Source: Georgenia wutianyii (GTDB lineage: Bacteria > Actinomycetota > Actinomycetes > Actinomycetales > Actinomycetaceae). From it: a stretch of 64,000 bases of DNA. The notes under the pieces were generated by a model. It saw only the letters and a program-made list of their open reading frames with translations. It was not told the DNA's origin and did no database searches. Shown here piece by piece: positions 14,617 through 25,511 of the stretch. The position numbers and the translations under genes were made by a program. Every line of letters starts with the position of its first letter. Position 1 is the stretch's first letter. The stretch covers positions 2,046,001-2,110,000 of the forward strand of contig NZ_CP040899.1 in NCBI RefSeq assembly GCF_006349365.1, written 5' to 3'.

Positions 14617-14769
14617 GTGACCGCGACACCGACACCCACGCCCCGCGTCCGCGCCTCCGAGCTCGTCGGGCGCGGCTGGCTCAACACCGGTGGCCGCTCG
14701 CTCACCCTGCAGGACCTGCGCGGCAAGATCGTGCTCCTCGACTTCTGGACGCCTAGCATCGAGGCATGA
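14617..14769 (+). pseudogene. Displaced 5' end of the thioredoxin/NHL-repeat gene (original host start)
   Basis: GTG at 14617 opens a frame of 50 codons containing RASELVGRGWLNTGG and ending LLDFWT before five foreign residues and a stop. This matches, at 24 of 36 aligned positions counted by eye, the first residues of the NHL gene at 23640. It is therefore the original beginning of that gene, cut off by the 9-kb insertion at about 14750. Joining its codons to the right-hand part of the gene at the shared 14-base core restores one continuous frame. The remnant's TGA overlaps the integrase ATG (ATGA at 14766-14769), so the host promoter and ribosomes now lead into the integrase. Confidence 0.88.
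14737..14750 (+). repeat. Left attachment core (attL)
   Basis: CTCGACTTCTGGAC is identical to 23757-23770 and occupies the same LDFWT codons in both gene copies. Flanking bases differ, so these 14 bases bound the crossover. Short identities like this are normal for serine integrases. The exact two-base crossover point cannot be read from the sequence. Confidence 0.82.
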
Positions 14770-16331
14770 CCTCGTCTACGCGTCGCCGCTCCACTCCGGC
14801 ATCGTCGCCGGAGACCTCGGCCGCCCTCTATCTCCGCCGTTCGTCGCGCAAGGATCTCGGCGCGAACCGCTCTCTGCGCGAACAGGAGACCGAGTGCCGT
14901 GCGCTGGCCGCGCGCCTCGGTCTCGACGTAGTCGAGGTCTATGAAGAGCAAGAAGGCACTGGCGCATCGATGCGGTCACGCAAGCGCCGTCCCAAGTGGG
15001 AGCAGGCCCTCGCTGACCTCGACGCTGGTGACCGCTTCCGCACGGTCATCGTGTGGGCGCTGGACCGTGCCGACCGGCGTGGCGCTGACGTGCTCGCCGG
15101 GCTCCTAACAAGGCACGCCGCGACCGGGCGGCGCATCCTCGGCGTGGACGGCACCGATACGAGCGACGAACGTCAACGCCTCGCCACGATCATCCGGGGC
15201 GAGATCGCCCGCGAGGAGGCCGAGAACATCGCCAAGCGTGTTACCCGGACCAAGCGCACGCGGCGCGCTGATGGCCGGTGGCTCGGCGGACGCCCGCCCT
15301 TCGGGCTCCGTGTAGTCGAGGGGCGCGTCGAGCCCGATCCCGACACCGCTCCTGTCGCCCGCCGAATCGCCGACGAAGTCCTCAGCGGACGCTCCCTGTG
15401 GAGCATCGCCGCCGACCTCAACGCCGAGGAGATCCCCAGCCCGTCCGGTGTCGTCAAGGGCTGGCGTGTAAACAGCCTGTCACAGATCCTCCGCGCCCCC
15501 GCCTTCGCCGGTCTCCAGTCCGTCCGTGAGCGCAAGCCGTCCGGAGGCTGGCCAGCTATCGCTGACGTCTATCTCGACGAGGAAACCCGTCGGCCCGTCT
15601 CGGTCGGCGTCGGTGTCATCACACCCGCCGAACGGTCACGCATTTTGGCAGCGTTGGAGAGCCGCACCCGCGAGGACGCGCGCGACGTCCGCCGGGGCAA
15701 GCGAGAGGTCCGATCACTTCTGGGTGACGTCCTCAGGTGTGCCTCCTGCGGTGGTCGAACGTCGGTGTCCGGTAGCGGGGCTCGCAAGTCCTACCGCTGC
15801 GCGGCTCTGGCAACTGGCCGGGAGTGCGCCGCACCTTTCACCGCGCCGCGTGACGCCCTCGAAAGTTACGTCGGTGAGCGCTTCCTGACGACGCTCTCGA
15901 CCTTGGAGCCCTCCGACGATCTTCTCGTCGAGGTCGCCGCCCGGTGGGTGGCTCGCGTCGAGCCCGGAGCGCTCGCCGACCGCCAGGAGGCCGAAGACGC
16001 TGTGGCTGCCCTCGACGCCGACCTCGCGCGCGCTCGTCGCCTGGCCGTCTCAGGCGTGCTGACCGAGGAGGAGGCCGCTGAGGAGATGAGCCGCCTCCGC
16101 CGTCTCCGCGTCGAGGCAGTCGACCGCCTCGCGGCGCTGCCCACACCTGCGATCGATGTCTCGCCCCTCCTCGACCTCGTACAGTCCCGCGAGGCATGGG
16201 AAGGCCTGCCCGTCGACGAGCGCCGCTCACTCCTCCCGCTGGCCATCCACGAGATCCGCGTCCTGCGTGCTTCTGGGCGCGGCGTCCGCTTCCGTCCGGA
16301 TGAGCGCGTGGAGATCATCTGGCACGCCTGA
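14766..16331 (+). CDS. Large serine integrase (site-specific recombinase)
   Basis: This 521-residue recombinase would integrate and excise the element. The N-terminal resolvase domain contains the nucleophile region YLRRSS (Ser26) and the conserved SLREQ and WALDRADRR stretches. A 'recombinase' domain follows (LGGRPPFGL onward). Next come a zinc ribbon with CASC and two further cysteines (about residues 322-350) and a coiled-coil segment (about 400-455). All are standard for large serine recombinases. The ATG overlaps the stop of the displaced host fragment, so translation is coupled to whatever lies upstream of the att core. That is the host gene promoter when integrated and the element's own mimic promoter when circular. 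No separate excisionase is recognisable. Confidence 0.95.
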   Translation: MTSSTRRRSTPASSPETSAALYLRRSSRKDLGANRSLREQETECRALAARLGLDVVEVYEEQEGTGASMRSRKRRPKWEQALADLDAGDRFRTVIVWALDRADRRGADVLAGLLTRHAATGRRILGVDGTDTSDERQRLATIIRGEIAREEAENIAKRVTRTKRTRRADGRWLGGRPPFGLRVVEGRVEPDPDTAPVARRIADEVLSGRSLWSIAADLNAEEIPSPSGVVKGWRVNSLSQILRAPAFAGLQSVRERKPSGGWPAIADVYLDEETRRPVSVGVGVITPAERSRILAALESRTREDARDVRRGKREVRSLLGDVLRCASCGGRTSVSGSGARKSYRCAALATGRECAAPFTAPRDALESYVGERFLTTLSTLEPSDDLLVEVAARWVARVEPGALADRQEAEDAVAALDADLARARRLAVSGVLTEEEAAEEMSRLRRLRVEAVDRLAALPTPAIDVSPLLDLVQSREAWEGLPVDERRSLLPLAIHEIRVLRASGRGVRFRPDERVEIIWHA

Positions 16332-16349
16332 CAACACGCATCCAACGCC

Positions 16350-16380
16350 AAGGCCCCTGGAGTGATCCGGGGGCCTTTCG
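16350..16380 (+). terminator. Rho-independent-type terminator after the integrase
   Basis: AAGGCCCC at 16350 pairs with GGGGCCTT ending at 16377, with an inner GG/CC pair and a six-base loop, followed by a short T-run. It begins 18 bases after the integrase stop and should separate integrase transcription from the downstream element genes. Confidence 0.75.
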
Positions 16381-16550
16381 TCTGCCCGCAACCAGGATCG
16401 CGCGAGCAGATACGCGCTGACTGGCCCTCTCCTCTCTCAACGTCGGCCAAGGCGACCTACCGGCGCCGCCAGACCGAGGAGCTCGCCCGGCTACGTGCCC
16501 TCGTCGGCGAAGTCCGCCAACTCCGCCATCTCACGAAGGACTCATCAACC

Positions 16551-17207
16551 ATGACGTACCCCCTCACGCTTCCCGATCCCTGCCCGCTCTGCTCCGGCCC
16601 GGTGACCTACTCCGGCCGGGGTCGCCGCCCCGTCTACTGCTCCCCGGCGTGCAAACGGAAAGCCGAGACCGAGATCCGCCGCCAGGAGCGCGCCCGCGCC
16701 TTTGGCGTTCGCGAGTGCCCGGTCTGTGGGCTGCCGGTGACGTACTCCGGCAAGGGACGCCGACCGACGTTCTGCGGGCCGGTCTGCTCCAACACAACGA
16801 TGGCCGACGAGTACCGTGCCCGCCGGTACTACGCCGAGATCCGCAAGGCCAACCGGCACATCTTCCGCTACGTCCCTCCGGGGCGGCGCGTCGTCGAGGA
16901 CCCGATCACGCTGAGCGGCTCGATCATTCCGCCGGAACAGGCCCGGATGGAGGCCCGGTCCGCCGCCCTGTCTGACGTGGACGGCGACGACGGCGGGAGT
17001 GGGCCGGTACTCAAGGGCCGCATCCCCGGCACCGTCCCGGCCCGTTGGGCGGAGCGGCAGACGACGTCGGACGACGAGGCCGCCACGTGGCTCAAGGAGA
17101 ACGATCCGCACTACCGGGTGGGGCTCATCTCCGAGATCAGTGATCCCGACGAACGTGCCGCCGAGAGGCTCGCTGAGGAGCTCGACAATGAGGACCACGC
17201 CGCCTGA
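16551..17207 (+). CDS. Double zinc-ribbon protein of the element, function unknown
   Basis: The 218-residue product starts with two similar zinc-binding modules: CPLC...CSPAC and CPVC...CGPVC. Each is followed by a VTYSGKGRRP-like loop, so the module was duplicated. The rest is charged and low in hydrophobic content, with an acidic C-terminus. ATG 16551 is preceded by GAAGGA. A longer in-frame GTG at 16362 lies inside the terminator hairpin and is unlikely, although the stretch between (TYRRRQTEELARLRAL) does look protein-like. The role is unknown. DNA binding, for example as directionality factor or regulator of the integrase next door, is possible but only a guess. Confidence 0.72.
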   Translation: MTYPLTLPDPCPLCSGPVTYSGRGRRPVYCSPACKRKAETEIRRQERARAFGVRECPVCGLPVTYSGKGRRPTFCGPVCSNTTMADEYRARRYYAEIRKANRHIFRYVPPGRRVVEDPITLSGSIIPPEQARMEARSAALSDVDGDDGGSGPVLKGRIPGTVPARWAERQTTSDDEAATWLKENDPHYRVGLISEISDPDERAAERLAEELDNEDHAA

Positions 17208-17596
17208 CGTTACGCCGCAACTTCCCCGGCGAGTAGTACGAGGGCGGGAATGCTGCCTCCGGCCGGCGCCATGCGTGAGCGCGCGGGAGGCGTCGAGGCA
17301 GATCTCACCAGACGCCAGTCCCTCCTGGTGGCGTCCTGGCTGTCCCTCCCGTCGAGTCTCCTCGGCGCGGAGGGGCGGCCCAACAGCTTCCCGCACCTGT
17401 TGCGGACCTCGAACGGGACGGGGCCAGGCCCCTCTCATCAGCGCGACGACGTCTCCGGCTGGTCACCGGGACCGAGCCCGACGGGAGGGGCTCTCGGCAT
17501 ACCTGTCTCCCGCCCCTGCCGATGACCACGGCCACTCACAGTTCCGACCGGCATGACCACGCCGGTCTCCGTCCCCAACACAGAAGGCTCCAACTC
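17208..17596 (+). other. Spacer inside the element, no convincing gene
   Basis: These 389 bases separate the zinc-ribbon gene from the ATPase gene. A 91-codon open frame at 17250-17525 exists, but its composition (Ser/Gly/Pro-rich, no recognisable motif) does not persuade me it is coding. The ATPase gene has an earlier in-frame ATG at 17522, but the better ribosome site (AGAAGG) stands before 17597. A promoter for the replication/capsid gene set is expected here but was not identified. Confidence 0.4.
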
Positions 17597-19216
17597 ATGT
17601 ACCCCACGACAGAGACGACACCGAGGAAGGACACCGAGGACAAGCCCGACCGCTGGGACGCCCTGCGGCTCGCCGACTTCATCGAGGACCACTACACCCT
17701 CGGCGTTACCGATGAAGGAGCGACCGTCGCCATCCCGAACGGCCCGCACGATGCCCGCATCGCCGTGCCCATCCGGTCCCTGGCCGGGTCGCTGCGAAAG
17801 ATGCTCCGTGACAAGGAGCGCGTTGCCGTCTCACGCGAGACCATGACCAACGCTCTGGACATCGCCGAGGCTGCGGCGCACGACCACGCCCCGACGTCCC
17901 TGGCGCTGCGCGTCGCACGCAAGCCCGCCGCCATCGAGGTCGACCTCGGTGACACCGAGGGACGCTACGTCGAGATCAGCGCTCACGGCTACGAAGTCCG
18001 CAACCCTCGAGACGAGGGCGAAATGTCGACCGACTCGCGGGCGGCGTGGAAGCGGTCCCGCGCCACGCAGGCACTCCCCGTCCCGGTGGCTGGCGGCTCC
18101 CGCGACGACCTGCGGAACCTCCTCGGGCTCGCCGAGGACGATCCGCGGTGGCGGCTGCTATGGGGCTGGGCCGTGGGCTCGTTCTTCGCCGACATCCCCC
18201 GCCCGATCCTGTGGGCGCTCGGGCCGCAAGGCTCCGGAAAGTCCACCCGCGCGAAGATGATGCTCAACCTCGTCGACCCCGCCGAGGAGTTGGGCAAGGA
18301 GCCCGGCAAGAACGAGCGCGACGATACGGCAAGCGCCGCCGCGAGATTCGTTCCTTCGTGGGACAACATTGGCAACGTCTCCGCCGCGACGTCCGACTGG
18401 ATCTGCCGCCTCGTGACCGGCGTTGAGGTCTCGCGGCGGGCGCTCTACACGGACGGCGACCTCCACGTCTCCACGATCAAGCGCACCGGCGTGGCGACGA
18501 GCATCGTCCTGCCGTTCGGTCTCGGGCCGGACGCCCTGGAGCGCCTCGTCCTCGTCGAGTTCGAGCGTGTCAACGAGGACGACCGCCGCCCCGAGTCGGC
18601 GCTATGGGGCGAGTACCGCAAGCTCCGCCCCGGCATCCTCGGCGCGCTGTACGCCGACGTAGCCGGAGCGCTTGCGCACCTGTCAGCCGTCCGCGCCGAG
18701 GTCCGTGGCCTGCCGCGCATGGCCGACTATGCCCTCGTTCTGCACGCCCTGGACCGGCATCACGGTCTGGACGCCGACGCCGGTCACGCCGACGCCTACA
18801 TGAGGCACTTGGGCGCGACTATGTCAGAGCGGGCGCAATCTGACCCGCTCACGGCGGCGCTCATCGATCTCGTCAAGCGACGGGCGGGCCGCTGGAAGGG
18901 GACCGCCGAAGCCCTGCACAACGCCATCGACAACGCGCGGCCCAGCGACCCGCGCGCGGGATGGCCGACCTCGGCGCTGTCCCTGTCCTCGGCCCTGACG
19001 AAGAACGCTGAGACCCTACGAGCTGCTGGCCTATCCGTCACGCGGGGGAAGTCCAACGGCGAACGGTTCATCCTTCTGGAGCGGCTTGCGGTCGCGTCCG
19101 ACGTAGAGCCGGCTTCCGAACAGGATCTGGTGACTACGACACCGCCAGCGCCGAAGCACGAGCCGGCCTTCCTCATCCCGCCGACGGGCGTCGCGGACCT
19201 CGACGATGTCCTCTGA
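17597..19216 (+). CDS. P-loop ATPase, phage replication helicase-like
   Basis: This 539-residue protein has a central nucleotide-binding site, WALGPQGSGKSTRAKMML (Walker A), followed by a SWDNIGNVS region typical of D5-like superfamily 3/AAA helicase ATPases in phages and satellites. A C-terminal helical part follows. No catalytic primase motif is evident in the N-terminal ~200 residues, so it is probably a helicase or origin-binding ATPase rather than a primase-helicase. The chosen ATG (17597) has AGAAGG about ten bases upstream. Directly after the gene lies a cluster of 9-base repeats that may be its binding sites. The most likely role is replication of the excised element. Confidence 0.75.
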   Translation: MYPTTETTPRKDTEDKPDRWDALRLADFIEDHYTLGVTDEGATVAIPNGPHDARIAVPIRSLAGSLRKMLRDKERVAVSRETMTNALDIAEAAAHDHAPTSLALRVARKPAAIEVDLGDTEGRYVEISAHGYEVRNPRDEGEMSTDSRAAWKRSRATQALPVPVAGGSRDDLRNLLGLAEDDPRWRLLWGWAVGSFFADIPRPILWALGPQGSGKSTRAKMMLNLVDPAEELGKEPGKNERDDTASAAARFVPSWDNIGNVSAATSDWICRLVTGVEVSRRALYTDGDLHVSTIKRTGVATSIVLPFGLGPDALERLVLVEFERVNEDDRRPESALWGEYRKLRPGILGALYADVAGALAHLSAVRAEVRGLPRMADYALVLHALDRHHGLDADAGHADAYMRHLGATMSERAQSDPLTAALIDLVKRRAGRWKGTAEALHNAIDNARPSDPRAGWPTSALSLSSALTKNAETLRAAGLSVTRGKSNGERFILLERLAVASDVEPASEQDLVTTTPPAPKHEPAFLIPPTGVADLDDVL

Positions 19217-19236
19217 CGTCATCCGGGCGCGCGCCC

Positions 19237-19477
19237 ACAGGGACGGTCGCGCCCCCGACTGACCGTCGTCAGGGACGCTCGCCGACCGACTGACCCTGGG
19301 ACCGACCCTGCGGAAGTCGCAGGAAGTCGGGTAAACGTCCGAAACAGGGACGACAGGGACGCTCTCGCGGGAGGGCCTCGCATCTGTTCTGTTCTGAAAG
19401 AAGAGAACAGGAGGGGAGCACAAGTCGCGCGCACAAGGTCGCCGCGCGACCGTCCCTGCCGTCCCTGCCGTCCCTGC
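19237..19477. repeat. Cluster of seven 9-base iterons with a hairpin, putative replication origin
   Basis: The 8-base core CAGGGACG occurs on the plus strand within 19237-19245, 19269-19277, 19344-19352 and 19353-19361 (the last two in direct tandem). Its complement CGTCCCTG occurs three times in direct tandem at 19451-19477 with a 9-base period. The two tandem groups thus face each other. Between them, CTGTTCT (19389) and AGAACAG (19404-19410) form a small AT-rich hairpin. The cluster lies in the 323-base gap after the helicase-like gene, where an origin or operator would be expected. Repeats are read directly, and the origin function is inferred. Confidence 0.6.
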
Positions 19478-19539
19478 GCCACCATCCTCGGCGCTCTCGC
19501 CGCGCCGCTGATCAAACATCAAGAACCCGAAGGATCACC

Positions 19540-19890
19540 ATGACCACCGACCTACTGGACGCCGTCGCCGACGACGAGGCACTCACAGCACGCGCCTTCG
19601 ACGAGATCACTTCGCTTGGCCTGACGACCGCCGCGCTCATCCGCGTCAGGTCCGGCACAGACGGCCTGCGCCGCTTCATCGACGGATCACCGGAAGACCT
19701 CGCCGCCGTTCCGGTGGCGATGCGCGCGCCGCTCGCTCGCGGGGAGTGGCTGGCACTCTCAGCCCGCGCCCGCTACGCCCTGGTAGCGGCCCACCTGGCG
19801 CGCGAGTACGCCAAGGACCCCGCCCACCTGATCCCGGCTCATCGAGACGGCGTGACCGAGCCTGGCACGACTCAGAGGACGTCGGCATGA
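19540..19890 (+). CDS. Small element protein of unknown function
   Basis: This 116-residue, mostly helical, Ala/Leu-rich protein has no motif I recognise. It starts at ATG 19540 with GAAGGA upstream and stands between the iteron cluster and the capsid genes. Its position would suit a small regulator, a head-assembly accessory or a directionality factor, but nothing in the sequence decides this. A possible in-frame ATG for the next gene (19887) overlaps its stop. Confidence 0.65.
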   Translation: MTTDLLDAVADDEALTARAFDEITSLGLTTAALIRVRSGTDGLRRFIDGSPEDLAAVPVAMRAPLARGEWLALSARARYALVAAHLAREYAKDPAHLIPAHRDGVTEPGTTQRTSA

Positions 19891-19934
19891 CGAACCTCGC
19901 TCCTCACCCACTACACCAGCCCGAAGGAGACACC

Positions 19935-20438
19935 ATGACCAAGCCCACCCCCGGCGACCTCACCAAGCGACAGCAGGATGCCGCTACGGCACCCGAGACG
20001 GCAGAGGCGTCCGCCGCCACCCAGGTCCCGGCCGCGCCGGAGAGGGCCACCGAGGAGCCCGAGCCGCGCTCGGAAGAGGCCAAGCGCTACCGGCTCCGGC
20101 TCCGCGAGGCCGAGGCTGAGCGGGACGCCCTGCGCGAGCGGCTGGAGACCATGCAGCGGGCCGAGGTCGAGCGGACGGCCAACCTGGAGCACCCCGAAGC
20201 TGTCTGGATCGGCGCGGAATTCGACGCCTTCCTCGACGGGGACGGCAACATCGACGCCGAGAGGATCGCCGCCCACGTCGCCACCCTCGGCGAGAAGTAC
20301 GGGATCCAGCAGCGAAAGCCCAAGATTCCGCGCATCGGCTTCATTCTCGACCAGTCCGGCCGTCCTGACACGTACGACCGACCCGCGTCCGGCAACGTCT
20401 TCGACCGCATGGCCGAATCCCTCTCCTTCGGCGTCTGA
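19935..20438 (+). CDS. Phage capsid scaffold-like protein
   Basis: The 167-residue protein begins with a disordered Ala/Pro/Glu-rich part. It continues into a charged coiled coil (EEAKRYRLRLREAEAERD, about residues 50-78) and ends with a basic/aromatic C-terminal segment. This layout, immediately ahead of a major capsid gene, is characteristic of phage scaffolding proteins, which line the inside of the procapsid and leave during maturation. ATG 19935 has an excellent GAAGGAG. An alternative ATG at 19887 overlaps the previous stop. No Ser-protease motif is visible, so a fused maturation protease is unlikely. Confidence 0.7.
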   Translation: MTKPTPGDLTKRQQDAATAPETAEASAATQVPAAPERATEEPEPRSEEAKRYRLRLREAEAERDALRERLETMQRAEVERTANLEHPEAVWIGAEFDAFLDGDGNIDAERIAAHVATLGEKYGIQQRKPKIPRIGFILDQSGRPDTYDRPASGNVFDRMAESLSFGV

Positions 20439-20618
20439 GCGGCCTTGCGTCGTCCTCCCTGCCGGTCGGGGAGGGCGGCGCTGGACTTCTCGGTCCTCGA
20501 CGGCGGATCGAGCCCCCGTGGGGCTCCCCGGCGTCACCGTCTACGGCCCGTGGCCGTACCCGTCTGAGCCTGTGGCTCGCGGCTTCCTTCACCGCTTCTT
20601 CATCGAAGGGAGCCCACT

Positions 20619-21416
20619 GTGGCTACTCACACCACTCTCACCTCCGCTCCGTCCTGGCGTCCGGACGTCGTCGTCTACCCGTCCGAGGAGGTCATCCCCA
20701 GCGCCCTCGCCCTCGTCGCTGGCAACGTCGTTGCCAACATCGAGGGTGACGCGCCCACGGTACGCATCCCGCGCGTGACCTCGACCGCCGAGCCGGGATT
20801 CGTGCCCGAGGGGACGCTCATCCCCGACAGCGGAGCTGCGCTCGACGAGGTCACCGTCGGCACGCGGAAGATCGCCGTCCTCGGCCGCTTCTCCCGCGAG
20901 CAGGCGGGCCAGGCCAACACCCTGCGCCTAGCGCTGGCGAGCCTGACCGCCTCGGTTGTGCGGTCCGCCGACGAGGCGTTCCTCAACCACGCCGACGAGA
21001 CTGACACGACCCTGACCGGCATCCTCGCTGGCAAGGACCTGCCCGCGCCGCTCGCCTATGACGGGCTCGGCTCGCTGATTGACGCCGCCGCAAGCGTCGA
21101 GGACGACGGCGGACGGGCGAGCGTCATCCTCGCCAACCCCCGCTCCTGGGCCACCGTCGCCAAGGATCTCGACCTCGGACACGAGTCCGTTGAGCGACGC
21201 GTCCTGGGCCTGCCCGTCGTGACGAACTCCGCCGTCCCGGCGGGGACCCTCGCCGTCGTCGACCGTGACGCCGTTCCGGTCGCCACCGGACAGGTCGAGG
21301 TCGCCCGCTCCGAGGAGGCCCTGTTCACCCACGACAGCGTCCTCGTCAGGGTCCTGTTCCGCCTCGGGTGGACCGTCGCCGACCCGGCGCGCGTGCAGCG
21401 CGTGACTGTCGCCTAA
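20619..21416 (+). CDS. HK97-type phage major capsid protein
   Basis: This 265-residue protein would form the shell of a phage-like particle. It shows features of HK97-fold capsid proteins: an early beta-rich region with VPEGTLIPDSG followed by a helix-rich spine (FSREQAGQANTLRLALASL). Next comes a domain with repeated 'ILANPRSWATVAKDL' type loop-helix segments, then a C-terminal strand region (VLVRVLFRLGWTVADPARV). It lacks a long N-terminal delta domain, consistent with the separate scaffold gene upstream. The GTG start at 20619 follows GAAGGGAG. Apart from the scaffold no other head gene is present, so assembly of infectious particles would need a helper phage. Confidence 0.78.
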   Translation: MATHTTLTSAPSWRPDVVVYPSEEVIPSALALVAGNVVANIEGDAPTVRIPRVTSTAEPGFVPEGTLIPDSGAALDEVTVGTRKIAVLGRFSREQAGQANTLRLALASLTASVVRSADEAFLNHADETDTTLTGILAGKDLPAPLAYDGLGSLIDAAASVEDDGGRASVILANPRSWATVAKDLDLGHESVERRVLGLPVVTNSAVPAGTLAVVDRDAVPVATGQVEVARSEEALFTHDSVLVRVLFRLGWTVADPARVQRVTVA

Positions 21417-21425
21417 CTGGCAGGA

Positions 21426-21471
21426 GGAGAGGGGAGCAGCTTCGTTCGCTAACGCGGCGGCTTCCCTCTCC
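21426..21471. terminator. Bidirectional hairpin between capsid gene and antisense ATPase gene
   Basis: GGAGAGGGGAGC at 21426-21437 pairs with a 12-base complement at 21460-21471 (one G-T pair) around a 22-base loop. It lies ten bases after the capsid stop and between two converging genes. The T-run is missing, so the call rests on the stem and the position. Confidence 0.5.
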
Positions 21472-21610
21472 ACCACTGGCCCGCGCCCGGCCTACCCGTG
21501 GGGGGCATCCCCCTCCCTCTCCATCCCTCGGCAGGAACAGCATTGCTGAAATATCCCCCCGTGAGCGCCTAACCGGTCCAGTGTTATGGACGACGACACG
21601 TCGTTTGCGA

Positions 21611-23212
21611 TCAAAGACGGCCCTCCTCGGCGTCTATCGACTCAAGCACCAGCTGCATGTCAGTATCGCCCGCTGAGCCACTGCGGCGCGCCTTGTTCAA
21701 GGAAACCCATTCTGGCTCGTACACCCAGCTCGCCTTCCGCAACTCATCTGACTTGCGCGGCTTCCAGAACTCGACGGGAATCTTCTGCATACGCTTGTCA
21801 ACCAGCGCAGGAATATCCACCATAAACACAATTGTGTCCACCCGCCTCATCGATCCCGTGTTCGGGCGCGTGACCATAATGCGATGGACGAAGCGCAAGT
21901 CCTCGAGTTCGACAATCTCTCGGCCCCACTCGGAATCGATATCACTCCGTTTGACCAGGAAGAAATAGGTGTCACGGTCGCGAGCGAATGCCACAAGATC
22001 CGCGAAGCGCAACTCTAGACCCGGCGCATCCCGGCCAGCATCGTTCCGAAGATCAGTCTGCTTCCTCTCAAGCATTCGCCCAGCAGCAGCCTGAACGCTC
22101 TCGGCGCCGATTCGAAATCCGCCAGATTGAGCCTTACTAGAGGCAGACCCTCCAGACTGAGCATTTTCCCACTCTGCATCTGCTGATGCAATCAGGAGGT
22201 CAAAGTAGTCTCTCGCAACAGCGCCACCCGCTACCAACACCGCCCGCTCGCGCGCGGTGGAAGTGAGGACGTCACGCACTTTGAGTCCATGCGGCTGCAG
22301 GACACCGTCAGCAACATCTTCCAAGAAGGCCTTCGCGGTCAAAAACTCGGAAAGTCCAACGTCCAGCGAAACGTGCTGGAGATCGTTTGGCGGCTGCATT
22401 CCTAGCGGCGGGTCACCCTCCACATACGAGCGGGTCCGAGAATGCACGCTTCCGATCTTTAGCCATACCTTGCTACGCTTCGTAATGCCGTGCAGGTGAT
22501 CCAGGACCATGGGCTGAGTCTCTTTGGCGATGAAGTAGAAGTCGTCCAACACGACCAACAGAGCGCCCTTTTGTCTCGCTGCGGTCGCCTTCTCCAGCGC
22601 ATTGGCCAGCGCTGGGGCAAGGTCGCGCAAGTAGCTCTCTTTCCTTCGCCTTGTCGTCGATGTACGCGAGACAGTCGAGTTGGTCGACAGGGCGCGCCCG
22701 ACACCCCCACTGAGCGAAAGGTAACGCCGAGCAACATTCCCAGTCAGGCGAACCACAAGCTCGCTATTTGATTTCGACGCCGTCTCGGTACTTTCGACCA
22801 CCTCAGCGGGAGAATCGCGGAGTGCACGAAGGACCTTCTGCAACTGGCCGATACGCCGGCGAACTCGCACGTGCTTTACTGCCAGCGCTCCAGGTTTCAC
22901 TTCCCTTAGGATCTCGAGGACCAATTCGATGAGCACGTCAGGGTAGGAACGGTCCTTGTGCGTCTCGACGTCGACAAAGATGACCCAGTCCCCTCGCTCC
23001 TGCGCCCTCCGCTGAAGAACAGCGAGGGTCGTGGACTTGCCGACCCCACGCCGCCCGGTGACGAGGTGATTGACAGGGGCCCCGAGAGTTGCGACAATTC
23101 CAGGCTTTAGCTCAACGAACCGATCACTAAGGATACTGTCGGCTTCCGTCGTAGTCCTAGACGCCGCAGATAGGGCGCCCTTGAAGGCCTCAAGATTATT
23201 CCTGGTCAACAC
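21611..23212 (-). CDS. P-loop NTPase, probable cargo gene of the element, unknown function
   Basis: This protein of about 533 residues has a clear ATPase core: Walker A TGRRGVGKSTT, then Walker B ALLVVLDDFYF, in an AAA/STAND-like arrangement. A long C-terminal part shows no known effector. There is no signal peptide or membrane helix. The gene is on the opposite strand, at the right edge of the element, and its base composition is clearly lower in GC than anything else in the window. This fits recent acquisition as cargo. Genes in this position of satellites and prophages often defend the host against other phages, which makes defence a reasonable hypothesis but not a demonstrated role. The GTG at 23212 has GGAG six bases upstream, and a TTG at 23224 is an alternative start. 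Confidence 0.75.
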   Translation of the reverse strand: MLTRNNLEAFKGALSAASRTTTEADSILSDRFVELKPGIVATLGAPVNHLVTGRRGVGKSTTLAVLQRRAQERGDWVIFVDVETHKDRSYPDVLIELVLEILREVKPGALAVKHVRVRRRIGQLQKVLRALRDSPAEVVESTETASKSNSELVVRLTGNVARRYLSLSGGVGRALSTNSTVSRTSTTRRRKESYLRDLAPALANALEKATAARQKGALLVVLDDFYFIAKETQPMVLDHLHGITKRSKVWLKIGSVHSRTRSYVEGDPPLGMQPPNDLQHVSLDVGLSEFLTAKAFLEDVADGVLQPHGLKVRDVLTSTARERAVLVAGGAVARDYFDLLIASADAEWENAQSGGSASSKAQSGGFRIGAESVQAAAGRMLERKQTDLRNDAGRDAPGLELRFADLVAFARDRDTYFFLVKRSDIDSEWGREIVELEDLRFVHRIMVTRPNTGSMRRVDTIVFMVDIPALVDKRMQKIPVEFWKPRKSDELRKASWVYEPEWVSLNKARRSGSAGDTDMQLVLESIDAEEGRL

Positions 23213-23224
23213 AATGAGCTCCAA

Positions 23225-23639
23225 ACCGCTTCCGCTAGCTGACTATCTGCTTACGACCACACCGTCTTAAGATTCTCTGCATGCAAGACTTGCCTCCTAA
23301 CCCACGATTGCTACGCCCCATTTCTTAGCACTTGCCGAAAAGGTCACGGTTACCGACCGACGCGAGCGGGACTAGTGCAGTATTCACTGAGTCCGTCTGC
23401 GCGAGCTCTACGCCAGCTCTGTCGCCCGTACGCTGGGCATGCTTCGCCGCTAGCCCGCCTAGGCGATGGACGCCCAGACACTACCCGCCATGAGTGCCTC
23501 CCGTGACCCGTGCCGACCATGGCCCCGTTGATCAAACTCCGGACACCAGAGGCAGCCCTTCTACGTCTACCACCTGTAGGCGGTCCGAGGTGGCACTTTG
23601 ACGTCTCCGGGATGCTCATATCCGGGGGACAATGGAGCC
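23225..23639 (+). promoter_or_regulatory. Element right-end spacer carrying the substitute promoter of the NHL gene
   Basis: The 415 bases between the antisense ATPase and the restored NHL gene contain no convincing gene. They must hold the ATPase promoter and, near the right end, the signals that now start the NHL gene. TTGACG occurs at 23598-23603 and could be a -35 box, but no well-spaced -10 follows, and GGGGGA stands before ATG 23640. In the circular form the same signals would read toward the integrase. Confidence 0.45.
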
Positions 23640-25511
23640 ATGACAACCCGACCACAAAAGTCCCGAATCCGAGCGTCAGAGCTGCACGGACGCAGCTGGC
23701 TCAACACTGGCGGTAAGTCGTACAGCATCAGCGACTTTCGGGGTCGTGTCTTGTTGCTCGACTTCTGGACCTTCTGCTGCATCAACTGCCTGCACGTCAT
23801 CGACGAGCTGCGCGAGCTCGAGGAGCGGTACCACGACGTCCTCGTGACCGTCGGCGTCCACTCCCCCAAGTTCGTCCACGAGGCCGACCCGGACGCGCTC
23901 GCCGCCGCCGTCGAGCGCTACGACGTCGCCCACCCCGTTCTCGACGACCCCGAGCTCACGACGTGGAAGGCCTACACCGCCCGCGCGTGGCCCACGCTCG
24001 TCCTCATCGACCCCGAGGGCTACATCGTCGGGCACATGGCCGGCGAGGGGCACACCCCGAACCTCGCCGCCGCCATCGACCAGCTCGTCGCCGAGCACGA
24101 GGCCAAGGGCACCCTCCACCGCGGCTCCGGTCCCTACGTGCCGCCCGAGCCCACGGCGGGCCTGCTCAGGTTCCCCGCCAAGGCGCTCGCCCTGCCGGGC
24201 GGCAACCTCCTCGTCGCCGACGCCGGGCACCACCGCCTCGTCGAGCTCGCCCCCGACGGCGAGACCCTCGTGCGCACCATCGGCTCCGGCTCCCGCGGGC
24301 GCGCCGACGGCGGCCCCGACGACGCCGAGCTCAACGAGCCCAACGGGCTGTGCCTGCTCCCAAGCGACGTCGCCGACCAGGTGGACTACGACGTCGTCGT
24401 CGCCGACACGGTCAACCACCTGCTGCGCGGCGTGCGGCTGGCCGACGGGCACGTGACCACCCTCGCCGGGACCGGTGAGCAGTTCATGGTCGGCGCCCCG
24501 GACAACGTCGCGCCGGGTGACGAGCCCGCCACCGAGGACTACGGCCCGGCCCGCCGGGTCCGGCTGTCCTCCCCGTGGGACGTCACGTGGTCGGCGCAGG
24601 CCGGCGCGGTCGTCGTCGCCATGGCCGGGCACCACACGCTGTGGACCTTCGACCCCCTCGCCGGCTACGTCGCGCGGCTCGGCGGGACGATGAACGAGGG
24701 TCTGGTCGACGGCGCGCTGCGCCAGGCGTGGTTCGCCCAGCCGTCCGGGCTCGCCGTGGCCGACGACGGCCGGCTCTGGCTCGCCGACTCCGAGACCTCG
24801 GCCCTGCGCGCCGTCGACGTGGCCGCCGGTGAGGTGCGCACCGCCGTCGGGCAAGGGCTGTTCGACTTCGGGCACCGCGACGGACCGGCCGACCAGGCGC
24901 TGCTCCAGCACCCGCTCGGCGTCGCCGCGCTGCCCGGCGGCCAGGTCGCCGTCGCCGACACCTACAACGGGGCCGTGCGCCTCTACGACCCGGCCACCGA
25001 GGAGATGAGCACCCTCGCCACCGGGCTCGCCGAGCCGTCCGGCCTCCTCGTCGACGGCGCGCACCTCCTTGTCGTCGAGTCCGCGGCCCACCGCCTCACC
25101 CGCATCCCGCTGCCCGACGGCACGGTCGCCCGCCACGACGGCGCCGCCCACCGCACGCAGCGTCCCGTCACCGAGGTGGCCCCGGACTTCACCCTCCGGG
25201 TCGTCTTCACCCCGCCCGCCGGCAAGAAGCTCGACGACCGCTTCGGTCCCTCGACCCAGCTGTCGGTCGCCGCCGAGACGCTCGTGGACGGCGGCGGAAC
25301 GGGCACCGACCTCGAGCGGCAGGTCTCCCTCGCCCCGACCGCGGACGCGGGTGGGCACACCGTGCTCTCCGTGACGGCCAAGGCCGCCTCCTGCGACGCG
25401 GACCCGGCCGTGGAGTTCCCCGCGTGCCACCTCGCCTCCCAGGACTGGGGCATCCCGGTGCGGGTGGTCGAGGGCGGGCCCGCCGAGCTCGTGCTCAACC
25501 TCCACGGCTGA
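23640..25511 (+). CDS. Thioredoxin-like/NHL-repeat protein (NHLRC2-like), with element-supplied N-terminus
   Basis: The 623-residue protein has an N-terminal thioredoxin fold with FWTFCCINC (Cys47 and Cys50 as the CxxC pair). It continues with a beta-propeller built from NHL repeats (for example VADAGHHRLVEL, VADTVNHLLRGV, VADTYNGAVRLY) and a C-terminal beta domain, like NHLRC2. No signal peptide is visible, so a cytoplasmic redox or scaffold role is likely, exact function unknown. The first ~44 codons and the start lie inside the inserted element. They differ from the original start still visible at 14617 (12 changes in 36 residues) and use more A/T, while everything after the att core is host sequence. 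The frame is intact. Confidence 0.9.
   Translation: MTTRPQKSRIRASELHGRSWLNTGGKSYSISDFRGRVLLLDFWTFCCINCLHVIDELRELEERYHDVLVTVGVHSPKFVHEADPDALAAAVERYDVAHPVLDDPELTTWKAYTARAWPTLVLIDPEGYIVGHMAGEGHTPNLAAAIDQLVAEHEAKGTLHRGSGPYVPPEPTAGLLRFPAKALALPGGNLLVADAGHHRLVELAPDGETLVRTIGSGSRGRADGGPDDAELNEPNGLCLLPSDVADQVDYDVVVADTVNHLLRGVRLADGHVTTLAGTGEQFMVGAPDNVAPGDEPATEDYGPARRVRLSSPWDVTWSAQAGAVVVAMAGHHTLWTFDPLAGYVARLGGTMNEGLVDGALRQAWFAQPSGLAVADDGRLWLADSETSALRAVDVAAGEVRTAVGQGLFDFGHRDGPADQALLQHPLGVAALPGGQVAVADTYNGAVRLYDPATEEMSTLATGLAEPSGLLVDGAHLLVVESAAHRLTRIPLPDGTVARHDGAAHRTQRPVTEVAPDFTLRVVFTPPAGKKLDDRFGPSTQLSVAAETLVDGGGTGTDLERQVSLAPTADAGGHTVLSVTAKAASCDADPAVEFPACHLASQDWGIPVRVVEGGPAELVLNLHG
23757..23770 (+). repeat. 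Right attachment core (attR)
   Basis: This is the second copy of the 14-base core CTCGACTTCTGGAC, in frame within the intact NHL gene. Sequence to its left belongs to the element (diverged gene start), and sequence to its right is original host gene. In the excised circle, the element-side flanks would join as ...TTGTTG-core-GCCTAGC..., the inferred attP. Confidence 0.82.

Follow-up and report, generated by a model that had tools for sequence, protein, structure and literature searches.

Gene repair by integrating elements is a known phenomenon, and Hochhut and Waldor reportedly found in 1999 that the element SXT supplies a new promoter and N-terminus to the gene prfC. The phiRv1-type elements, of about 9-10 kb, carry a serine integrase and a capsid gene. 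For the SXT/R391 elements, the consulted sections of PMC2791158 and PMC2654960 describe a tyrosine recombinase and an integration site at the 5' end of prfC. In the available text of PMC4701971, all insertions of its 29 serine-integrase streptococcal integrative and conjugative elements (ICEs) are stated to disrupt genes, and the N-terminus remains unchanged in its 5'-end cases rbgA, ftsK and ebfC, the rbgA integrase being of the tyrosine type. In Mycobacterium, the vector pIF05, with the attP and integrase of a prophage located at the site attB-29, is predicted to enter a SpoU-like methyltransferase gene at its codon 6, and of three vectors it is the one named as using a serine integrase (excerpts of PMC10654092). 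Here, a stretch of 64,000 nucleotides from Georgenia wutianyii (contig NZ_CP040899.1, positions 2,046,001 to 2,110,000; hereafter the window), the genome of which is a single contig of 3.45 Mb, was analysed for a 9.0-kb element inserted in a thioredoxin/NHL gene (trx-NHL). As the best explanation of the whole, it is highly probable that this is a small phage-like or satellite-like integrative element with a large serine integrase and a portable start of the target gene (the module), the end of which doubles as an arm of attP, the attachment site of the element.

The two gene starts of the trx-NHL locus

The core CTCGACTTCTGGAC of 14 bases occurs exactly twice in the window, at 14737..14750 in the junction attL and at 23757..23770 in attR (forward strand, as for the features below unless otherwise given), and the distance between the copies gives an element of 9,020 bases. 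The inferred crossover dinucleotide TG, at 14746-14747 and 23766-23767, respectively, belongs to the Trp codon of the motif D-F-W-T-F-C-C-I-N-C, four codons before the CxxC of the trx-NHL gene, whose Pfam domains are NHL, Thioredoxin_8 and AhpC-TSA; this is codon 44 from the host start and codon 43 from the element start. The tRNA search of the window found none. The original 5' end of the host gene, running from GTG to the core, is stranded at 14617..14769, has an N-terminus like that of the protein P0071 of a close relative and, after the insertion, forms a 50-codon leader open reading frame (ORF) whose TGA overlaps the integrase ATG (ATGA). At the other end, the element-borne replacement 5' end (23640..23770) begins with ATG and brings 42 codons plus the Trp codon to the core, through which it continues in-frame into a chimeric trx-NHL gene of 623 amino acids (aa; 23640..25511). 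The insertion in this gene, both starts and the 14-base core, as named in the original prediction, were all present, and its count of 24 identical residues out of 36 between the starts was reproduced as 22 among the 34 residues up to DF, together with W and T.

When the flanks were rejoined at the core, an uninterrupted ORF of 624 aa without internal stop was obtained, in line with the unbroken empty site expected earlier. P0071 is 95.2% identical to this empty-site protein over all 624 aa without gaps, its N-terminus being that of the stranded start except for M in place of V at residue 1, and P0070, likewise from a close relative and with a cut N-terminus, is 98.7% identical over 612 aa, also gap-free; compared with the chimeric protein, the identities drop to 92.5% (P0071) and 96.9% (P0070). 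The check on relatives lacking the element had the outcome foreseen, the gene being uninterrupted in P0071 and in the same-genus genomes G001-G004; the genome G005 of the same genus, 57% complete, gave a weak trx-NHL match only. The trx-NHL orthologues were closest to Georgenia proteins among the named matches. Because P0071 and P0070 fit the empty-site protein better than the chimera and the same-genus genes are uninterrupted, the left start is assigned to the host and the right one to the element.

An integrase family at one target gene

The large serine integrase (14766..16331, 521 aa) contains the Resolvase and Recombinase domains (PF00239 and PF07508 above the cut-off, with a zinc ribbon slightly below it) and matches the integrases of PHROG 95. 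Its homologues in the protein search numbered 68 listed, the window's own included, and the next three are 72-77% identical to it. In an alignment of 31 sequences including the window's, Y22, R24 and R25 are invariant and S26 is found in at least 90%. The catalytic serine is presumably located within this conserved N-terminal motif of the window's integrase.

The family was placed by a profile scan of genome contigs with the alignment A1 and by searches of 160, 221 and 275 genomes (E 1e-90). The scan returned six loci, five of which are family members, in Arthrobacter mobilis, Actinoplanes cyaneus, Micromonospora sp. MP36, Planosporangium mesophilum and Isoptericola luteus, all at the trx-NHL gene; in each, the integrase is preceded by a 5' remnant of this gene, which is damaged in A. 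mobilis, and the other end holds the gene with a start of its own. The sixth locus, in Aminobacter, holds a distant recombinase with 25% identity over residues 19-223 and was not accepted as a family member. The integrase was present in 8 of the 160, 4 of the 221 and 2 of the 275 genomes, 11 of these being new, and in all 11 it lies near the trx-NHL gene on the same contig, at most about 53 kb apart. Altogether, all 17 placed chromosomal copies, the window's included, sit at the trx-NHL gene, all in actinobacteria. An order sample (396 genomes, E 1e-60) and a phylum sample (396 genomes, E 1e-90) returned the window itself only; as each set samples a larger group, this means a rare or patchy family rather than its absence.

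In 16 of the 17 chromosomal copies, the element supplies the lost part of the gene, as an in-frame replacement start at its right end, and the gene stays open after the integration; the search suggested in the original prediction for other elements with the same gene start at the right end thus gave 15 besides the window's. The left remnants of these 16 are open to the core in eleven, damaged in three (A. mobilis, G944 and G1010) and not seen in two (G1047 and G1111). Six elements (G790, G1196, G944, G1010, G1000 and G935) measure by coordinates only about 2.4-3.5 kb between the cores and retain the start. The Micromonospora subfamily of the integrase (L117-L122 and L132-L138 except L134) is about 40% identical to that of the window, and four of its six elements are of just this size by coordinates, with little beyond the integrase and the gene start. 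The element proteins other than the integrase had no match in 21 relative loci at E 1e-3; the loci L116-L127 hold mostly the integrase with its flanks, and because L032, L034 and L035 contain whole elements, the content beyond the integrase differs at least in these three. Family elements need not share any other gene, as far as the loci compared show.

A query of the viral contigs with the single integrase found no relative, the alignment A1 found three, and the gene-start peptide found two, L042 and L043 (the latter being the contig of L040). In the phage collection, the integrases of all 238 records are less than 60% identical to that of the window (27.9-30.3% in the 20 listed), and searches of the phage and plasmid collections with the 44-aa replacement start returned nothing. 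On the viral contig IMGVR_UViG_2893647412_000002 (L042:580-2377), a truncated trx-NHL start likewise precedes a clearly different serine integrase, 27% identical along part of the sequence; the crossover there lies a few codons further on, unrelated sequence setting in after DFWTFCC, and the same gene may be the target of a second integrase lineage. On the viral contig L040 (9821-10035), a trx-NHL start divergent from the integrase is placed between it and the core. A first reading of L040 as an attL was dropped in favour of a free phage carrying the start beside its integrase, possibly a phage with the start in another orientation; with arms matching only at 9 of 26 positions, L040 was excluded from all counts.

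Selection on the module was measured over the 25 codons outside the attP arm. Pooled over seven module pairs, the synonymous divergence (pS) was 0.40 and the nonsynonymous one (pN) 0.067, a pN/pS of 0.17, and each module compared with its own remnant gave 0.05-0.47 in 11 pairs. These values point to purifying selection at the protein level on the replacement starts, in agreement with the constraint proposed earlier for the element's copy. The modules are not recent duplications, since their synonymous divergence from their own remnants is 0.44-0.85 in 11 pairs. The module distances follow the integrase distances, given the host gene (partial Mantel 0.35, n=16, permutation p 0.0015); among the 12 elements with usable remnants, the partial value with the integrase is 0.32 for the modules and 0.06 for the remnants.

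The attP arm in codons and the competing explanations

The attP has a short core and arms of about 26 bases arranged as an inverted repeat about the central TG (in TTC-TG-G). In the window, the left arm (23740..23765) lies within the replacement codons, in the GRVLLLDF region, and is complementary at 18 of 26 positions to the right arm (14748..14773), which holds a Shine-Dalgarno-like GAGG and the integrase ATG. Symmetry is centred on the TG without any shift in 12 of the 13 elements and at -1 in the 13th; the TG centre also fits the viral contigs L038 and L039. Because the last eight or so codons of the replacement start are the left attP arm, this stretch would be selected both as protein code and as a site for the integrase, which is part of the explanation held above to be highly probable. 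In the attL of L034 and L120 (elements G792 and G1000), GG stands in place of TG at the inferred crossover and the attR keeps TG, which may reflect a mutation after the integration or a mismatch at the crossover.

The arms were compared in 14 elements with both ends, the 26-base left arm of the replacement codons being set against the right arm at the left end of the element. A pattern filter retained 53 of the 79 loci fetched, and with one duplicate dropped, 52 presumed natural genes made up the natural set. The match of 18 of 26 in the window compares with 13 for its own host remnant and with a mean of 13.1 and a maximum of 15 for the natural genes; the other modules scored 16, 15, 15, 15, 15, 14, 16, 15, 17, 13 and 14. 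For 9 of the 14 elements, none of the natural genes reached the module's score. Over the full arm, the module exceeded its own host remnant in all 12 testable pairs (Wilcoxon p 2.4e-4), the damaged remnants of A. mobilis and G1010 being excluded (G1047 and G1111 have no left remnant); at the outer 18 positions, it was above the remnant in 11, with a tie in G935. In a sliding control of 13 elements (A. mobilis excluded), the mean match was 0.57 at shift 0 versus 0.18-0.32 at 16 other shifts. At the outer positions, 131 of 234 matched versus 61.0 +/- 6.6 in arm shuffles. In a separate comparison, 3000 random synonymous recodings with the protein fixed and the modules' codon usage gave 110.5 +/- 4.1 matches, with a maximum of 126, against the 143 observed. 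In symmetry, the coding arms are roughly on a par with free ones, given that the arms of G1191, which brings no start, match at 17 of 26.

The arm is accompanied by a change in the encoded protein. At the sixth codon upstream of the crossover's Phe codon, Arg was found in 14 of 16 modules (CGT in 9, CGC in 4 and CGA in 1), the other two having Cys and Lys; in the host remnants, Lys occupies this place in 13 of 14 (G1010 excluded), in the natural genes in 39 of 52, with CGT in none of the 52, and in 120 listed homologous proteins, including the window's, Lys was counted 116 times and Arg 4 times. The codon choice and the recurrent Lys-to-Arg change follow the attP arm, and the residue differences near the crossover track it rather than being drift only; neither this nor the coding attP arm was part of the original prediction.

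In the mechanism proposed, the large serine integrase would actively recombine attP with the chromosomal attB at the TG in the Trp codon of D-F-W-T, the start module comprising a promoter-like stretch and the first 43 or so trx-NHL codons up to the crossover. The integration would strand the host start beside the integrase and join the element start to the rest of the gene, which would thereby keep an open frame and be expressed as a chimera. In the window, the integrase would be read from the stranded host promoter in the integrated copy and from the module promoter in the circular form. A -10-like GACAAT (23628..23633) precedes the element-borne ATG by six bases, and GACAATGG upstream of 23640 recurs at the same distance in the uninterrupted same-genus genes L002 and L005. 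In many natural genes, inspection by eye shows a -10-like hexamer some 12 bases upstream of the start, and a looser form of the pattern was found in 8 of the 52, and among the 16 modules in the window's only. The module may drive the chimeric gene; as to the swap of the 5' end together with the promoter in the original prediction, the 5' end was borne out, and for the promoter the -10-like match is the whole of the evidence. With just 18 bases between the crossover and its ATG, the window's integrase is probably transcribed from beyond the crossover; this is kept to the window, since the space is larger in most other members, at about 30 bases or more by eye. The translational coupling of leader and integrase was rejected as a family trait, the ATGA overlap occurring in the window only among the left ends compared.

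A wider reading, towards which we lean without great confidence, is that the portable gene start has evolved as an attachment site, that the integrase specificity drives the replacement of Lys by Arg in the host protein, that the integrated host gene depends on the element DNA, so that the module is retained even in shrunken elements, and that the crossover swaps the promoters in the window copy, the element's then serving the host gene and the host's the integrase.

A number of observations weigh against these interpretations. In G1191, a prophage of about 53 kb by coordinates, the crossover is visible and no start is brought; a TAG precedes the Trp codon in the NHL frame with no more than two codons in between, so that the gene is left without a start. 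In the viral contigs L038 and L039, the attP is symmetric (18/26 and 16/26) yet a gene start is absent; because these three do without one, the start module is an added feature, not required by the integrase. The arm of A. mobilis, whose element is decayed, matches at 7 of 26 without symmetry, and 24 of the 52 natural genes do as well; that of G935 matches at 8 unshifted, which 14 natural genes reach, and at 15 with a one-base shift; those of Planosporangium, G944 and G1005 are equalled or beaten by 1, 1 and 16 natural genes, respectively. Arg stands at the codon changed in the modules in 13 of the 52 natural genes, and the window's own module shows the weakest constraint relative to its remnant, with the highest pN/pS of the 11 pairs (0.47). 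Since the modules also follow the host gene (partial 0.41), they are probably renewed at times by capture from hosts. The sigma-70 scan found no promoter, and no recombination directionality factor (RDF) was recognised. Finally, the 17 elements make only 6 integrase groups at 60% identity and are not independent, so the p-values are optimistic.

Other explanations were weighed against the same evidence. An ordinary intragenic insertion with an in-frame ORF left behind, the right start being due to chance or to a recent duplication of the start of the host gene, would suit a short core, at which in-frame joins can occur by chance, as well as the attP without a start in L038 and L039 and the disrupted gene of G1191; it is highly improbable, and the family survey already refutes it unless the modules are for the most part non-functional, for a homologous in-frame start recurs in 16 of the 17 chromosomal copies, the module pairs bear the mark of purifying selection, and the modules are separated from their own remnants by the synonymous divergence given above. 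Unlikely, and to be taken more seriously, is that the module serves mainly as a leader or promoter of the integrase in the excised circle, with the restoration of the target gene as a by-product. The overlap of the leader TGA with the integrase ATG in the window and the lack of room for a promoter after the crossover agree with it, and so does ICEKp1, the integrase of which is described in the available text of PMC13023037 as switching between the host tRNA promoter and its own 3'-end promoter; however, purifying selection on 25 codons outside the arm would not be expected of a mere leader, the spacing before the integrase ATG is larger in most other members, and the start on L040 is divergent from the integrase.

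The roles of the two starts might also be reversed, with 23640 as the ancestral host start and 14617 as the imported one, as GACAATGG matches the promoter region of L002 and L005; the stranded N-terminus, however, is that of P0071 and P0070 and resembles the same-genus genes, and the attP arm is common to the modules and not to the remnants, which makes the likelihood of this assignment next to negligible. That the likeness of the arms stems from the lower GC of mobile DNA rather than from dual coding accords with the GC content at third codon positions, lower in the modules than in the remnants in 12 of 14 listed pairs (the exceptions, A. mobilis and G1010, have damaged remnants), but is quite improbable, given that the arm shuffles fall far below the matches observed, that the peak is confined to one register, and that recoding with the modules' own codon usage fails to reproduce the match.

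Other genes of the element and comparison with known systems

The integrase is followed by an ORF with cysteine-rich stretches and a weak HNH-type match (16362..17207), the true start of which may be further in, and by an ORF of 564 aa (17522..19216) with a Walker A-like GPQGSGKST and no match in Pfam, PHROG or NCBIfam, which perhaps encodes a replication helicase or primase. Two small ORFs ahead of the capsid gene (19540-19890 and 19935-20438, together 19540..20438) had no match in an NCBIfam scan. The HK97-type major capsid protein of 265 aa (20619..21416) was recognised by PF05065 (5e-16), PHROG 10 (8e-20) and TIGR01554 (above the cut-off). On the reverse strand, an AAA/STAND-type ATPase gene (21611..23224) adjoins the replacement start, which is on the opposite strand; its matches are weak, those of Pfam and NCBIfam being below the curated cut-offs and that of mad8 at 8.6e-7, and it is a possible cargo or defence gene. 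Among the nine element ORFs scanned with PHROG, some of which may not be genes, no terminase, portal or tail match was found, the ORF 19935-20438 being scanned with NCBIfam only, outside this set.

The family handles its entry into a protein gene as the tRNA-targeting integrases do, at the start of the protein gene, and provides a natural example of DNA that serves at once as coding sequence and as recombination site. This suggests that an amino acid of a host protein can be replaced through the influence of a recombinase, and host genes are predicted to grow dependent on decaying elements. Integrases with an attB in a deeply conserved catalytic motif might also serve as integration tools for actinobacteria.

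Among the described systems, the phiRv1-type elements, set beside the window's element by description only, are alike in size, integrase type and capsid gene and differ in the target site. In the open-licence literature searched, no report of a serine integrase replacing the 5' end of a gene was recognised. The view in the original prediction that such a replacement is unusual has to be qualified by the SXT/R391 elements, whose tyrosine recombinase uses the 5' end of prfC. As far as described in the consulted sections, the SXT/R391 elements share with the window's element the integration near the 5' end of a protein gene and are unlike it in being conjugative elements of about 100 kb of Gammaproteobacteria that use a tyrosine recombinase and prfC instead of a serine integrase and trx-NHL; nothing on an attP made of constrained codons appears in those sections (PMC2791158, PMC2654960). 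The streptococcal ICEs, of rumA and others, resemble it in the site-specific serine integrase and the protein-gene target, with an exchange of gene ends at rumA, where, unlike here, it is the 3' part that is exchanged, with a change of frame (PMC4701971, available text). For attB-29, in contrast, whether the expression is restored is called unclear by the authors (PMC10654092, excerpts). ICEKp1 has its integrase under the host target promoter when integrated and under an element-end promoter when excised, with a tRNA as the target, whereas the promoter switch of the window is only inferred (PMC13023037, available text). What is new here, within the known phenomenon of gene repair, is the combination of a serine integrase, the start of a protein gene and an attP arm lying in codons.

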